Shown one piece after another: positions 18,187 to 60,027 of a DNA stretch of 64,000 nt. Source of the DNA: Treponema sp. (GTDB lineage Bacteria; Spirochaetota; Spirochaetia; Treponematales; Treponemataceae). How positions within the stretch are numbered: the stretch's first letter is position 1; each line of letters begins with the position of its first letter. Under the pieces are notes generated by a model that saw only the letters and a program-made list of their open reading frames with translations, had not been told where the DNA came from and searched no databases. Location of the stretch: positions 1-64,000 of the forward strand of contig JAILEY010000056.1 in NCBI GenBank assembly GCA_024687165.1, in the 5' to 3' direction. Made by a program: the position numbers and the translations under genes.

Positions 18187-18362
18187 TTATAAATATATAT
18201 TGCCGAAAAAAATCAAAAACATGACACTTCAGATAAAAAAAATATAAAAAAAATCAATTTTCAGCAGAAATCAGATAAAAAAACTTCCTCAAAATGTCAG
18301 AAGATTCCTTAAAACAGGATTAAAAGTTGTTTATTTCCATAATTGGTTGTATATTGATTGTA

Positions 18363-19364
18363 ATGAAGTTTTACAGAAAAAGTTTTCTGAAATTCAAAAT
18401 TCTCGCACTATCACTGCTTGTTCTTTCGGTAACACAGGAACTTTATGCAGAATCCTTCAGAGTCCGGAAAACACATGTCATTCAGCTGGAATCTCCGCGT
18501 GATAAACAGACTTCTGTAATGGGCATAAATGATGCGATGATTATCAGGCTACCAAAAGACGATGCTTTCATTCAGGGTGTAGAACTTTCAATAAAGGTTC
18601 CAAAAGTTGTTGCTGACTGGACTGACAGCGTTGCATGGTCACTCTACACAGGAATCAGCGAATCAGCAAATGAAAAAACAGTAAATTATTCAGCAAAAAG
18701 AATAAAAGTCGGTACATTCGCATCCGGCTTAAGTTTAAATCTTAAAATCCCCGTAAAAGACAATCATTCAATAAAACAGGACGCATATTCTCAGCTTGTA
18801 AACGAAAATACATTAAATCAGGGAAACTTCATTTTTTTCAGACTGCAGCTTGCAATGAAAGGAACTGATGATGAAATATACAATTCTCAGTTTACAGTAA
18901 GCGTAAAGCCTATACTTGAAGACAAGGGCATTCTCAGAATAGAAACAAAAGATCCGTTCGGCACACAGATTAAGCCGTATACAGTATTCATTGACGGCAA
19001 GCAGACTGAAATACAAAACAATGAAATAGTGCTGCATACAGGAACATACAACATAAGCTTCATAAGCGATTATTACCGCAATGAGTTAAGGGAAGTTACT
19101 ATTGAACAAGCAAAGACTTCTGTTGTATCCGTTGACTTCCGTGACATAAGACCTCTCGTTCAGGTGATAATGCCTTCAAATGCAAAAGTTTTCTTTGATG
19201 ACGCTGAAATTAAAGACGCAAAAAAATCCTTCTATACAGTACAGGGGAAACATACAATTAAGTTCGTTCTTGGTGACTATGAGCTTATAAAGACACTGAC
19301 AGTCGCCAACGGAAAGAATTACACTATTTCACTTGAGATGGACGCTTCGGTTCAGGAAGAATAA
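18363..19364 (+). CDS. Hypothetical exported protein, conserved treponemal type
   Basis: From the ATG at 18363 the protein has 333 residues and a typical signal peptide (KFKILALSLLVLSV, cleavage after ELYA). The ORF track start at 18327 adds 12 hydrophobic residues and is less likely. The mature part is predicted beta-rich. Its last 130 residues (LRIETKDPFGTQIKPYTVFIDGK, then a second VIMPSNAKVFFDDAE block) look like two PEGA-like beta domains, found in surface proteins. No catalytic motif. It is divergent from comF and followed by a candidate small RNA. Confidence 0.7.
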   Translation: MKFYRKSFLKFKILALSLLVLSVTQELYAESFRVRKTHVIQLESPRDKQTSVMGINDAMIIRLPKDDAFIQGVELSIKVPKVVADWTDSVAWSLYTGISESANEKTVNYSAKRIKVGTFASGLSLNLKIPVKDNHSIKQDAYSQLVNENTLNQGNFIFFRLQLAMKGTDDEIYNSQFTVSVKPILEDKGILRIETKDPFGTQIKPYTVFIDGKQTEIQNNEIVLHTGTYNISFISDYYRNELREVTIEQAKTSVVSVDFRDIRPLVQVIMPSNAKVFFDDAEIKDAKKSFYTVQGKHTIKFVLGDYELIKTLTVANGKNYTISLEMDASVQEE

Positions 19365-19425
19365 TTTTTTCTTTTTTCCCAAAAAACATTCAAGATTTTT
19401 AAACCCTGGGTCGATATATATATTA

Positions 19426-19510
19426 CCAGGCGTTCAATTTTATCCCCTCCCACCCATTGGCGCCTGGCAGCCAAAAGGCGTGACCGGTGTAACAACCGGT
19501 CTTTTTTTTT
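19426..19510 (+). ncRNA. Candidate small RNA with C-rich loop and intrinsic terminator
   Basis: Between two genes lies a TATATA box (19415-19420), then stem CCAGGCG (19426-19432)/CGCCTGG (19461-19467) enclosing a 28-base loop with CCCCTCCCACCC, a small GCC-AAAA-GGC hairpin (19470-19479), and a terminator GACCGGT/ACCGGTC (19482-19501) followed by nine T. This is the architecture of a stand-alone small RNA, and C-rich loops of this type in other bacteria pair with Shine-Dalgarno sequences. The length would be about 85 nt. The alternative is the 3' UTR of the upstream gene. No Rfam family was recognised. Confidence 0.5.
19482..19510 (+). terminator. Intrinsic terminator upstream of the PBP1A gene
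   Basis: A perfect 7-bp stem GACCGGT/ACCGGTC with a 6-base loop, followed by TTTTTTTTT. Confidence 0.9.
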
Positions 19511-19564: not shown

Positions 19565-22186
19565 ATGACTAAAAGCAAAAGGTGGCCCGGTGTTCTTGTA
19601 GGGCTTTTAATATTTTCAGCAGTAATTTTCGGCTTTCTTCTTGGTGAAGGACTTGCCCTTACAGTTAATACAATAAATACAGAAAATTTCGAAGACTTTA
19701 ATACAGCTCTTCCAACAAAGATTATAGATGTAAACGGTGAACTTATTACGGAATTTGCAAATGATGAAAAAAGAGAAATCATTTCAATCCACGATTTACC
19801 GCAGCATATGCTTGATGCACTTCTTACGCGTGAAGACAGAATTTTCTATTCTCACCAGGGATTCAGTGCAAAGGCTCTTTCACGTGCTGTAGTCGGAGTT
19901 CTTACAAAAAGCTCACTCGGTGGAGGTTCAACCCTTACTCAGCAGATTGCCGGAACTCTTTACTGCGACCGAAAGGAAATGTCAGTAACAAGAAAGCTCA
20001 AGGAACTGTGGTGGGCCATTCAGATGGAACGCCATTATTCAAAAGACGAAATTCTTGAGTTATACCTCAATAAGATTTATTTCGGCGGCGGTACTTACGG
20101 TGTAAATGCAGCAAGTAAATATTACTTTGGACACAGTGCAAAAGAAATAACTCCTGCAGAAGCTGCAATCCTTGTAATCCAGCTTTCAAATCCATCTTAC
20201 TACAATCCTTTTGACTACCCTAACCGCGCTATGGAACGCCAGAGAGACGTACTTAAATCCATGGTAAGGGCTAGACACATTACAAAAGAAGAAGCTAGTG
20301 AATCTTTTGACAACTACTGGTCTTCATTTGATTTTACAAGAACAAGCGCCTCAGCTTACTCAATGAGAAATGACGAAGCACCATGGTTCAGCGAATATGT
20401 GAGACGCCAGCTTGGTGAAATGCTTTACGGAACAGAAGACATTTACACAGGCGGATTTACAGTAAACACAACACTCAATCTTTCACATCAGAAAGTTGCA
20501 GACAAAGTAATGACTGATTACATAAAAGCCGCAAACAATATCTACCAGCGTACTATGAACAGCCACGAACGTTCTGCATTCGGAAGATACGTTCCTTTCT
20601 CTGAACTTTTGTGCCTTGTGTTTGATATTTCATCTTTGAGACTTAATCAGCAGCGTGCAAAACAAACCACAATGAACAATTACCGCGACACAATAAATCC
20701 TGTGATTGACATTATGGCCGTAATGAACAACATGGACAAACTGAAAACTGAAATCGTTACAAAGGGAAACATGCTGATAAAACAGAATGCTGAGCGAACA
20801 ACGATTGAAGGAACAATGATTGCCCTTGAAAATTCCACAGGCTACATCGATGCACTTGTCGGTGGTTCAAAGTACGATCATGACAATCAGTACATCCGCG
20901 CAATTCAGGCAAAACTTCAGCCGGGATCTACCTTCAAGCCGCTCTATTATTCAGAAGCAATTGAAAGTCATCCTATTGTTGACGGAAAATCACCTGCTTC
21001 AATGACGGCAATTATCAGTGATACACCGGTTGTTTTCCATAAAGAAGACGGATCTCCATATATTCCAAACGACTACAAAGGAAAATGGGAAGGCGATGTA
21101 GAAATCTGGTATGCACTTGCACACTCAATGAACATTCCATCAATTAAAGTCCTTGATGCAATCGGATTTGATGCAGCAATCAAAAGAACTTCATCTCTTC
21201 TTGGAATTCCAAAAGAAGAACTTGACGACCGCGGCTTCGTTCCTGTATACCCTCTTGGACTTGGTGTCTGCGCAGTTCGTCCTATAGAAGTAGCAAGAGC
21301 ATTTTCAACAATAGAAAATAACGGAAAAGCTGTAACTCCAGTTTCAATCATAAGCGTTCTTGATAAAAAAGGAAACGTGATTGCAGAACCGGCTCAGGAA
21401 ATGAGGGAAAAAGCAAAAAATAAACCTCAGCAGCTCATGAAACCAGAAACTGCATTTATCATGCAGGAAATATTGAAGAATACAGTTAATTCGGGAACTT
21501 TAAGATACGGCTCTGACTGGGATTCTACATTATACACACTCGGCGAAAAACGAGGAAAGGGCTCAAAATTCCGCTACACAAATTTGAACGGAGACAGCTT
21601 TATCATGCCTGCAGCAGGAAAAACAGGTACGACACAGAACTGGGCTGATGCATGGACAGTCGGTTTCACACCATATTACACGGCCGTTTTCTGGTTCGGA
21701 TTTGACCGCCGCGGACAGTCTCTTGGTACACGCATTACAGGTTCAACTATTGCCGGTGTTGCATGGGGAGACTTCATGCACGAAATCAACAAAGGCAAAC
21801 CTTACAAAACATTTACAAACAAAGTGCCGGAAGGACTTATTGAACTTGATGTATGTACTTTAAGCGGAGGTCTGCTTACTCCAGAATGTAAGGATCACAA
21901 AATCCATGCATATTTCTATCCTGGAACAGAACCTACTGAACCTTGTAAAAAACATTCGGATAAAACAGCCTCTACAATCGGTGTAAAAAGAATCGAAGAA
22001 GCCAGATGGAAGAGCGGATTCGACTTTGATATGGATGACGAACTTGACAAAGATCTTACCGTAAACTTAGACTTCTTAAAGAGCGACAAGCTTTCGTCAG
22101 AACTTAAAAATGATTCTTACTTTGATGATGATTTTGATCACGAAGAAGAAAATCAGGATGTATTTGACAACTGGCTTTTTGACTAA
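19565..22186 (+). CDS. Penicillin-binding protein 1A, bifunctional peptidoglycan synthase
   Basis: 873 residues with an N-terminal membrane anchor (about 8-30). The GT51 transglycosylase domain has the catalytic Glu in REDRIFYSHQGF (Glu90), GGSTLTQQIAGTLY and the KLKELWWAIQMER motif. The transpeptidase domain has SxxK at S455-K458 (PGSTFKP), SxN at S521-N523 (HSMN) and KTGT at 686-689. It polymerises and crosslinks peptidoglycan in the periplasm. The last 60 residues form an acidic tail (MDDELDKDL, DDDFDHEEE) not usual for the family. No strong Shine-Dalgarno is visible. The ParB-like gene follows 12 bases later. Confidence 0.95.
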   Translation: MTKSKRWPGVLVGLLIFSAVIFGFLLGEGLALTVNTINTENFEDFNTALPTKIIDVNGELITEFANDEKREIISIHDLPQHMLDALLTREDRIFYSHQGFSAKALSRAVVGVLTKSSLGGGSTLTQQIAGTLYCDRKEMSVTRKLKELWWAIQMERHYSKDEILELYLNKIYFGGGTYGVNAASKYYFGHSAKEITPAEAAILVIQLSNPSYYNPFDYPNRAMERQRDVLKSMVRARHITKEEASESFDNYWSSFDFTRTSASAYSMRNDEAPWFSEYVRRQLGEMLYGTEDIYTGGFTVNTTLNLSHQKVADKVMTDYIKAANNIYQRTMNSHERSAFGRYVPFSELLCLVFDISSLRLNQQRAKQTTMNNYRDTINPVIDIMAVMNNMDKLKTEIVTKGNMLIKQNAERTTIEGTMIALENSTGYIDALVGGSKYDHDNQYIRAIQAKLQPGSTFKPLYYSEAIESHPIVDGKSPASMTAIISDTPVVFHKEDGSPYIPNDYKGKWEGDVEIWYALAHSMNIPSIKVLDAIGFDAAIKRTSSLLGIPKEELDDRGFVPVYPLGLGVCAVRPIEVARAFSTIENNGKAVTPVSIISVLDKKGNVIAEPAQEMREKAKNKPQQLMKPETAFIMQEILKNTVNSGTLRYGSDWDSTLYTLGEKRGKGSKFRYTNLNGDSFIMPAAGKTGTTQNWADAWTVGFTPYYTAVFWFGFDRRGQSLGTRITGSTIAGVAWGDFMHEINKGKPYKTFTNKVPEGLIELDVCTLSGGLLTPECKDHKIHAYFYPGTEPTEPCKKHSDKTASTIGVKRIEEARWKSGFDFDMDDELDKDLTVNLDFLKSDKLSSELKNDSYFDDDFDHEEENQDVFDNWLFD

Positions 22187-40673: not shown

Positions 40674-42431
40674 CTATTCCTCCATAAGCCAAGTGCGGAT
40701 GAGCATTGCAACATCTTCCGGATGCTCTTTTGCCATAGCAATTGCGCTTTCCTGAAGCTCTGCACGCTTTCTCTCTTCAACAGACATTGTAACTTCCATT
40801 CCCTGCTGCTGTGCATCAAGGAGAGCCTGCTGACGTTCTGCTTCCTGCTGACGAATTCTTTCTTCTTCTGCAAGACGACGACGGCGTTCAATTTCACGGC
40901 TGATAACTCTGAAGAGAATAAATGCAACAAGAACGATTGCTATACCGATGAGGATGTACATTATCATCTGCTTCTTTTCACGTTCAGCCTTGTACTGTTT
41001 ATCTTCCGCTTTAAATTCTTTTGAATGATCTGTTGCGATATTTGTAACTGTTACGCTGTCTCCACGCTGCTTGCTGAAGCCAACCGCATCCTGAACAACT
41101 TTTTTAACTTCATTCATTTCTTTTTCAGAAATAGGAGTATATACACGGATGATTCCGCCTGCATCTGCTACAGTACGAACTCCAGTCTGCTCATCCATTT
41201 TGTTGATAAATTCTTTGGAAATTTTAGGATCACCGTTTACATCATTTTCAGTACGCCAGCTTCCGTCGATATTTACAGAAATTGTAAGACGGTCAATCTT
41301 TGGCTTTGTTTCTTCAAAAATATGATCTTCATTAAGTCCGTAATTTACTTTTTCTCCGATTTCCGTAGATTCACCTATTAAATTTGAATTATCAGAATAA
41401 ACTGCCGGATTCTGTCCTTCAACACCACCCGGTCCCTCAGGATTAAAACCTGTTCCAGTAAATGTTTTCTTTACAGTTTCTTTTGAAATCTCAAGCTTTT
41501 CTACAGTAACAGAGTCATCGTAAGGTGTATTCGGGTTATCATCAACAATTTTAATTCCACTATATTTTTTTGATTCAGTCTTTTTTGGAGACATGTCCAT
41601 TTCAATTTTCATAACGGAAAAGTTTACTCTGTCACGTCCGTAAGTTCCCTGAAGTGCATCAAGAACTCTCTTGCTGTAATCTGCTTCAAGCTTCATTATC
41701 TGGCGGTTGCGTTTTTCCTGATTTGCAATTTCGTCGCTATCTGCCATTCCTTCAAAATCAGTAAGTTCCTTTCCTTCGTTATCAAGAATGATTACATCTT
41801 TTGGCTGAAGGTTCTGCACTGATTTTGCAATAAGATTCTGAATACCTTTTATTTTCTTTTTGTTTGTAAGTACATCGGAAGTTCCGTCAGAATAAAGAGT
41901 AACACTTGCTGTTGGAGTAGCCTGATTCAAAAGTGTATCTTCAGGCAATGTAAGAAGAACATCGGCACTCTGGATTCCGTCAATTGTTTCAAGGTGATTT
42001 TTTACGAGGGATTCCATAGCCTGCTTGTAAACTGCAGCATCATCAAAGTCGTTGCGGTTCCAGCTTTTTCTATTTAAATTGAAAAGATCATAGGCATTGG
42101 CATTTGCAGGAGCATATCCTTCTGCAACAAGCTGACTTCTGTAATGCTTTGCAAGCTCTTCATTATCAACAGAAACGTAATTATCAGAAGAGAAATAGAC
42201 TTTAACATTATCTTTTGCAAGACGCTGTTCAATCCTGAATCTTTCAGAAGCATTTGAAATCGGTGTGTTAAAAAGACGTACGGTTGCATCTCTTGAAGAC
42301 AAAGATGCCATGAGAAATATAGCAGCAACTACTACAACAACGATTCCGACAACAATCCCCTTCTGCAAGGGAGTCCAAGAAGTCCACTTTTGTTTTACGG
42401 TTTCAGTTTTTTTCTTAAACCATTCGTTCAT
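40674..42431 (-). CDS. fliF: Flagellar MS-ring protein FliF
   Basis: 585 residues with two membrane segments, at about 26-46 (GIVVGIVVVVVAAIFLM) and 477-497 (MIMYILIGIAIVLVAFILF), enclosing the periplasmic ring-building motifs (FNRKSWNRNDFDDAAVYKQAME, LPEDTLLNQATPTASVTL). The C-terminal cytoplasmic tail, which binds FliG, is Glu/Gln/Arg-rich. It forms the MS ring of the basal body. A strong GGGAGGGGA ribosome binding site precedes the ATG. Confidence 0.97.
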   Translation of the reverse strand: MNEWFKKKTETVKQKWTSWTPLQKGIVVGIVVVVVAAIFLMASLSSRDATVRLFNTPISNASERFRIEQRLAKDNVKVYFSSDNYVSVDNEELAKHYRSQLVAEGYAPANANAYDLFNLNRKSWNRNDFDDAAVYKQAMESLVKNHLETIDGIQSADVLLTLPEDTLLNQATPTASVTLYSDGTSDVLTNKKKIKGIQNLIAKSVQNLQPKDVIILDNEGKELTDFEGMADSDEIANQEKRNRQIMKLEADYSKRVLDALQGTYGRDRVNFSVMKIEMDMSPKKTESKKYSGIKIVDDNPNTPYDDSVTVEKLEISKETVKKTFTGTGFNPEGPGGVEGQNPAVYSDNSNLIGESTEIGEKVNYGLNEDHIFEETKPKIDRLTISVNIDGSWRTENDVNGDPKISKEFINKMDEQTGVRTVADAGGIIRVYTPISEKEMNEVKKVVQDAVGFSKQRGDSVTVTNIATDHSKEFKAEDKQYKAEREKKQMIMYILIGIAIVLVAFILFRVISREIERRRRLAEEERIRQQEAERQQALLDAQQQGMEVTMSVEERKRAELQESAIAMAKEHPEDVAMLIRTWLMEE

Positions 42432-42516
42432 ATTCCCCTCCCATGAACGAAAAATACATTTATCATTATAAAATATAGAATGATGAAAAACAAAAGCTAT
42501 TCATCATTCAGCTGAA

Positions 42517-59965: not shown

Positions 59966-60027
59966 TTATTTCCTCCCGACCCAATTATGCTTTCCCCAAA
60001 GCATTTTTTTAGTTATATTCAGCAATA

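Follow-up and report, generated by a model that had tools for sequence, protein, structure and literature searches.

Does the C-rich stem-loop ahead of the PBP1A gene belong to a small RNA with a gene of its own and, if it does, which mRNA would its loop recognize? The locus lies in a 64,000-nt stretch of Treponema sp. DNA (the window), for which an initial annotation had listed, at 19415-19510, a TATATA box, a stem enclosing a C-rich loop, a small hairpin and a terminator, and had read them as an isolated trans-acting small RNA (sRNA) of about 85 nt whose loop pairs with GGAGG Shine-Dalgarno (SD) sequences. All of these elements are present there. Comparison with related genomes supports a trans-acting sRNA, with its transcription and repressive action inferred, and points to fliF as the likely target.

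A Structured RNA with a Nearly Invariant Loop

The RNA runs from 19424 to 19510 on the + strand (~85 nt) and is made up of the match to covariance model R1 (19424-19505; E = 1.3e-15 in this genome) and the remainder of the U-run. R1 is the model that was used for the genome searches. Hairpin 1 (19426-19467, +), with the stem CCAGGCG(UU)/(GG)CGCCUGG, whose CCAGGCG and CGCCUGG arms occupy 19426-19432 and 19461-19467, closes the C-rich loop. Within this loop lie CCCCUCCCACCC at 19444-19455 and, as defined by alignment columns, the invariant pairing core UCCCCUCCCACCC at 19443-19455 (+). Counted from the last stem pairs, the loop has a length of 24 nt, which drops to 17 nt if the invariant CAAU and AUUG pair; this corrects the 28 bases annotated initially, and UCCCCUCCCA in the loop has a predicted unpaired probability of at least 0.97. 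Hairpin 2, GCC AAAA GGC (GCCAAAAGGC; 19470-19479, +), was placed by the alignment, with 84.9% of cells paired, and reads UGCCUGAUGGGCA in most homologues. The intrinsic terminator, GACCGG..CCGGUC followed by U9 (19482-19510, +), consists of a stem at 19482-19501 and a U-run at 19502-19510 and is supported by the sequence and by the covariation of helix 3. The minimum free energy of the sRNA strand is -32.1 kcal/mol, against a mean of -20.2 for shuffled sequences (z = -3.9), and none of 200 shuffles was as stable.

It had been predicted in the initial annotation that the loop would be conserved in relatives and that the stems would covary, and both predictions were fulfilled. A BLASTN search across the genus (146 genomes) recovered the element from many species and from both contig strands, with E down to about 1e-30. 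Among 25 aligned genus members the loop columns, (A)AUUUUAUCCCCUCCCACCCAUU, are invariant or nearly so, while the enclosing stem varies between species yet still pairs, with two-sided changes in 9 of 10 pairs; none of 500 shuffles did as well. A wider alignment of 60 homologues, which was fitted to the model and is hence biased towards the model's pairs, contains 248 cells with two-sided changes as compared with 75 in shuffles (0/500). Compensatory changes affect 9 of the 10 pairs of hairpin 1, where 95.4% of cells are paired (59 distinct sequences), and all 8 pairs of terminator helix 3 show two-sided changes, with 96.4% paired. BLASTN, the covariance-model matches and the strong covariation together show an RNA gene far beyond chance.

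Of the 245 genomes in the family, 235 have an R1 match, nearly always a single one, and 18 of the 20 genera are represented; for good-quality genomes (completeness of 90% or more, contamination of 5% or less) the count is 126 of 128. An exact-loop scan of GTDB returned 116 stretches, including T. saccharophilum, T. ruminis, T. zioleckii, T. lecithinolyticum and many uncultured treponemes; at least five came from other phyla, apparently by chance. Weaker-scoring R1 matches occur in members of four other families (f2, f3, f7 and f8) that share the order or the class. We find these convincing because the promoter, the CCCCUCCCA core and the three-hairpin layout are kept, the core with few exceptions, and because PBP1A follows in most of them. 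Among the genomes with weaker matches in neighbouring families is G165, which we take to be T. pallidum, with the sRNA at C1:775185-775261 (-). No R1 match was found in the searched genomes of a control genus that we take to be Borrelia-like; Borrelia is described as lacking sigma-28 (PMC11607428).

Seven genomes (G131, G112, G196, G078, G005, G081 and G026) carry two model matches each, and in several of them BLAST also shows two copies of the loop, so that sRNA paralogues are possible. The weak matches L215 and L214 (G348 and G171) have no C-rich loop and were dismissed as chance; short repeats (AACCGGTTTAATCGATTAAAT) make up L214.

Promoter and Genomic Context

A sigma-28 (FliA)-type promoter is located at 19390-19416 (+), with a -35 element TCAAG (19390-19394), a 16-nt spacer and a -10 element TCGATA (19411-19416). 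The pattern T(A/T/C)AAG-N15/16-CCGATA is found in 56 of the 60 homologues, 6-8 nt ahead of the model start; this count allows up to one change in CCGATA and includes a few -35 elements with one further change and spacers of 14 (once) and 17 (once). The conserved -10 core is (C/T)CGATA. The TATATA at 19415, which had initially been taken for the promoter, overlaps this -10 element, and that part of the annotation failed. The motif resembles the flaB2 promoter of T. denticola, which was mapped by RACE and assigned to sigma-28 and has a -35 TTAA and a -10 CCGATAA (PMC9481697). A stricter pattern, TAAAG-N13-15-GCCGATA, precedes a flagellin gene in G145 and, in the genome from which the window derives, a FlgM gene, among other places; its reversed control was about as frequent in some genomes, so that the pattern serves to check the motif and falls short of genome-wide proof. 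While the conserved promoter motif is shown, its fulfilment of the FliA-type description, and with it the transcription of the sRNA and its dependence on sigma-28, is inferred from sequence alone; we consider such transcription likely. In G043 (L009) the sigma-28-like motif is shifted upstream by ~30 nt relative to the other homologues, and a 5' extension of the RNA is possible there.

The upstream neighbour encodes a 345-aa protein with a weak PEGA domain (Pfam PEGA 1e-5; 18327-19364, +) and is not part of the RNA. In 55 of 79 loci a PEGA-domain gene lies on the same strand within 400 nt of the RNA, 60-170 nt ahead of it, which could suggest that the element is only the 3' UTR or terminator of that gene, with no function of its own. 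The initial annotation would have been refuted had the region been seen only as such a 3' UTR. This was not borne out: a conserved sigma-28-type promoter separates the RNA from the upstream gene, and the invariant loop and the covariation span more than 20 genera. We regard the 3' UTR explanation as virtually ruled out.

The downstream neighbour is the PBP1A gene (19565-22186, +; Pfam Transgly and Transpeptidase), and the RNA might accordingly be a cis-acting leader or attenuator of PBP1A. In support of this, PBP1A lies within 700 nt downstream in 39 of the 74 loci with enough flank and follows most of the weak matches in the distant families (f3 G435, f2, f8, f7). However, 39 of 74 falls short of a position always directly upstream of PBP1A, and the RNA is kept in loci where PBP1A is not downstream and is therefore no PBP1A leader. 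(About five of the loci in these neighbour counts are chance matches outside spirochaetes.) Moreover, every homologue has a perfect terminator, the distance to PBP1A is variable, and the loop is complementary to fliF and to nothing in its own transcript. The leader explanation can be all but discarded; the initial placement upstream of PBP1A was correct, yet this proximity is no evidence of function.

As the neighbours are variable and the promoter is its own, the RNA is a gene in its own right, and the isolated unit of ~85 nt that had been proposed held. It has what is expected of a trans-acting sRNA that pairs with SD sequences, namely a free-standing gene with a conserved promoter, a terminator and an accessible, conserved seed.

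fliF as the Likely Target

The gene proposed to be the target, fliF (40674-42431, -; Pfam YscJ_FliF 1.9e-27 and YscJ_FliF_C 5.9e-21), encodes the MS-ring protein. Its translation-initiation region can form a hairpin (42423-42451, -), UUCGUUCAU [GGGAGGGGAAU] AUGAACGAA, whose loop holds the SD and whose 3' arm includes the start codon. The leader site is a 10-nt perfect complement of the sRNA loop. In the 2.38-Mb genome from which the window derives (G000), GGGAGGGG-N1-9-ATG occurs once, at 42429-42442 (-), ahead of fliF; GGGAGGGGN1-9ATG is the form of the pattern matched only at fliF there. In G043, G018 and G158, too, fliF is the only gene with the GGGAGGGG-ATG pattern. A strict TGGGAGGGG-ATG pattern missed some of the fliF leaders, as C replaces T in many of them.

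Most members of the family retain the arms of the fliF hairpin, even though the 5' arm lies outside the coding sequence, and where the arms depart they do so in pairs, as in G190 (CAUUCGC/GGCGAAUG) and G018 (UUCGGUCA/UGAUCGAA). In the loop, GGAGGGGA is predicted to be unpaired with a probability of at least 0.99, except for its first two bases (UG), which are paired. The hairpin loops are longer in genera g4, g9, g10, g12 and g14. A MAFFT alignment of the fliF hairpins was out of register and was left out of the pair counts. We also noticed that the fliF leader hairpins of these five genera (G149, G180, G189, G154, G155, G157 and G159) contain an inserted smaller hairpin and often two G-rich stretches. 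The Borrelia-like genus has a fliF with an ordinary SD, AAGGAGCU.

Across 18 genomes, the mean duplex energy with the sRNA loop is -20.9 kcal/mol for fliF and -9.9 kcal/mol for all 411 genes. Uninterrupted complementarity over 8 nt or more is present in 24 of 55 fliF leaders and 6 of 12 ftsZ leaders, as against 11 of 411 genes overall (ftsZ included). These energies are nearest-neighbour duplex estimates that ignore kissing-loop geometry. When sampled genes were ranked as targets, in a sample that took in roughly 0.8 Mb from G145, 0.4 Mb from G043 and the clusters around fliF, fliF came first of 322 in G043 and second of 744 in G145, where the gene ranked above it has a long poly-G tract. The idea that the loop pairs with SD sequences is thereby supported, but not for GGAGG genes in general as had been suggested: 71 other GGAGG leaders average -12.7 kcal/mol, and fliG, most leaders of which have GGAGG, -12.6, while fliF and probably ftsZ stand out instead with about -21 kcal/mol each.

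A referee may object that any strong G-rich SD would fit a CCUCC loop. This accounts for part of the complementarity; the reversed-loop control still gives -17.2 kcal/mol with fliF, and in g2, g15 and part of g20 only 6 contiguous pairs with fliF are found. The co-change of the two loops bears on the same point. They fit each other best inside a genus. When partners were exchanged at random among 20 genera, the predicted duplex lost strength, going from -21.16 to -20.07 kcal/mol (sd 0.36; p = 0.0015), in a permutation test that takes the genera as independent. In G386 the sRNA loop is altered to CUCCCAAAUCG and the fliF leader reads CGAUUUGGGAG, and in G378 and G413 CUCCCAG in the sRNA faces CUGGGAG in fliF. 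Genera with GUUCCCC mostly carry GGGGAAC or GGGGAGC in fliF. We give this last pattern less weight because the GUU/AAC co-change may be a single ancestral event and may partly serve the mRNA hairpin itself.

Several genomes of f4, f5 and f11, and G449, have GGGAGGGG-like fliF leaders yet no R1 match. Since these leaders resemble targets, R1 may be too narrow for these genomes, and homologues in f4, f5 and f11 may have been missed.

An alternative is that the fliF hairpin is a CsrA site, with GGA in its loop, and that the sRNA acts independently of it. T. denticola has CsrA, with sites reported near the flaB1 and flaB2 SDs (PMC9481697), and the fliF loop has GGGA and GGGGA. On the other hand, the sRNA is C-rich and its main loop lacks GGA, and the CsrA explanation leaves unexplained both the complementarity of the sRNA loop to the fliF loop and their co-change. 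We consider it very unlikely as an alternative, although CsrA and the sRNA could conceivably both act on this hairpin. With complementarity and co-change shown, fliF is the best candidate target, and pairing at its SD, inferred from sequence alone, is likely and well supported by comparison.

A Putative Late-to-Early Feedback

Sigma-28 becomes active once the hook-basal body is complete and FlgM has been exported, and FliF forms the MS ring, the first part to be assembled. Our preferred reading is that treponemes and related spirochaetes have an independently transcribed, trans-acting sRNA that is probably a late flagellar RNA repressing fliF; its expression, sigma-28 dependence, repressive action and role are inferred. 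Sigma-28 would turn on the sRNA when flagella are near completion. The open C-rich loop would then pair with the G-rich SD in the loop of the fliF start-site hairpin, in a kissing contact of about 8-11 bp, and keep ribosomes off fliF, and less of the MS-ring protein would be made. With the fliF SD hidden, the start of further flagella would be slowed, and late flagellar genes would thereby feed back on early ones. The direction of the effect, repression, is inferred because the pairing covers the SD. The sRNA would offer a concrete route by which late flagellar expression feeds back on initiation and hence on flagellar number, and the predicted pairing with fliF is exact to the base.

Relation to Known Small RNAs

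None of the 4227 Rfam families reaches its gathering threshold at the sRNA; the only hit in the window is a tRNA, and no family was found in 20 homologous or target loci. The best Rfam match, anti-hemB (RF02837), shares a terminator hairpin and a short UCCC, but the sRNA scores only 17.3 bits, below the gathering score of 49.5, and is not a member. Termite-flg (RF01729), a structured RNA of the termite hindgut named for flagella (PMC2864571), matches neither the sRNA nor the fliF leader, even when E values of up to 10 are admitted. These Rfam searches exclude Termite-flg, isrB and anti-hemB as the identity of the sRNA, which is likely to be previously undescribed.

The nearest functional parallels are found outside the spirochaetes. 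CjNC1 and CjNC4 of Campylobacter are likewise short RNAs that depend on sigma-28 and whose predicted pairing covers the ribosome site in flagellar mRNAs of another class, and they repress target reporters in E. coli (PMC4626219). However, they are 44-nt paralogues restricted to thermophilic Campylobacter, their targets are sigma-54 genes, they have no C-rich hairpin loop, and fliF is not mentioned in the text of that study (PMC4626219). The resemblance would be one of logic, by analogy and without homology. CJnc170 (FlmR) and CJnc230 (FlmE), also of Campylobacter, balance flagellar classes, and the FliA-dependent CJnc170 lowers flagella, but their targets are different (flgM and Cj1387c for CJnc230) and they have no known homology to the treponeme RNA (PMC11187230). 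In E. coli, UhpU, MotR, FliX and FlgO are sigma-28-controlled sRNAs that tune flagella; unlike the RNA described here they are UTR-derived, they were studied through Hfq, and their targets are lrhA, flagellin and the S10 operon (PMC10578931). No sequence common to these four and the treponeme sRNA was found.

Small RNAs have barely been described in treponemes. A 2022 review lists 6 annotated sRNAs in Spirochaetes, with T. pallidum among the exceptions in a survey of sRNA prevalence (PMC9029176). The present one is found in nearly every treponeme genome searched, and its carriers include oral species and apparently the syphilis agent.

ftsZ and Other Candidate Targets

A further alternative is that the sRNA does depend on sigma-28 but that its main conserved target is not fliF, with ftsZ as the strongest candidate; fliF would then match by virtue of its strong SD or be one of several targets. 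In the window, the ftsZ leader GGGUCGGGAGG (59972-59982, -) pairs with the sRNA loop at -23.8 kcal/mol, and ftsZ leaders of 12-14 genomes have mean energies of about -20.6 to -20.9 kcal/mol, against -9.9 for all genes, and are thus as complementary as those of fliF. The ACCC half of the loop, which is kept in the family, fits the GGGU(N)GGGAGG of ftsZ in several genomes; ftsZ leaders elsewhere read GGGUUGGGAGG (G149 and G119), GGGUGGGAGG (G150) and UGGGAGGGGA (G165). The target sampling, moreover, covers only part of two genomes, and in G145 the leader of a FliS-like (flagellin chaperone) gene, UGUGGGAGG, ranks ninth. Against this alternative, the contiguous GGGAGGGG match is found genome-wide only at fliF in the four genomes named above, and fliF has a dedicated hairpin and a co-change with the sRNA loop. 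An unsystematic look at ftsZ leaders did not find a hairpin of the fliF type. We therefore judge a main target other than fliF unlikely, while ftsZ remains a possible second target, inferred from complementarity.

A bolder reading combines the two genes: a single RNA made by sigma-28, ancient in Spirochaetia, would silence both fliF and ftsZ through the same loop, and Borrelia would have lost it along with sigma-28. We consider this reading less likely than not. If true, it would tie the completion of the periplasmic flagella to the cell-division cycle.

Other leaders did not hold up as conserved targets. Those of ftsZ, ftsA and fliI in the window roughly equal fliF in pairing strength once bulges are admitted. 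As conserved targets, fliI, fliG, hslU and ftsA were rejected, their leaders not being consistently complementary, and in the leader comparison none of ftsA, ftsQ, fliG, fliH, fliI, hslU and topA was outstanding. MraZ boxes (GTGGGAGAA repeats) gave falsely high target scores.

The ftsZ SD regions of most treponemes are unusually G-rich (GGGUNGGGAGG, UGGGAGG; leaders L423-L442) and complementary to the same sRNA loop. The FliS-like gene of G145 (L461:16957, +) is a possible flagellar target. The same genome has long poly-G runs just before start codons at L469:15365 (+) and L469:18643 (-), which might mean that surface or sensory genes, or a transposase, are expressed in a phase-variable manner.
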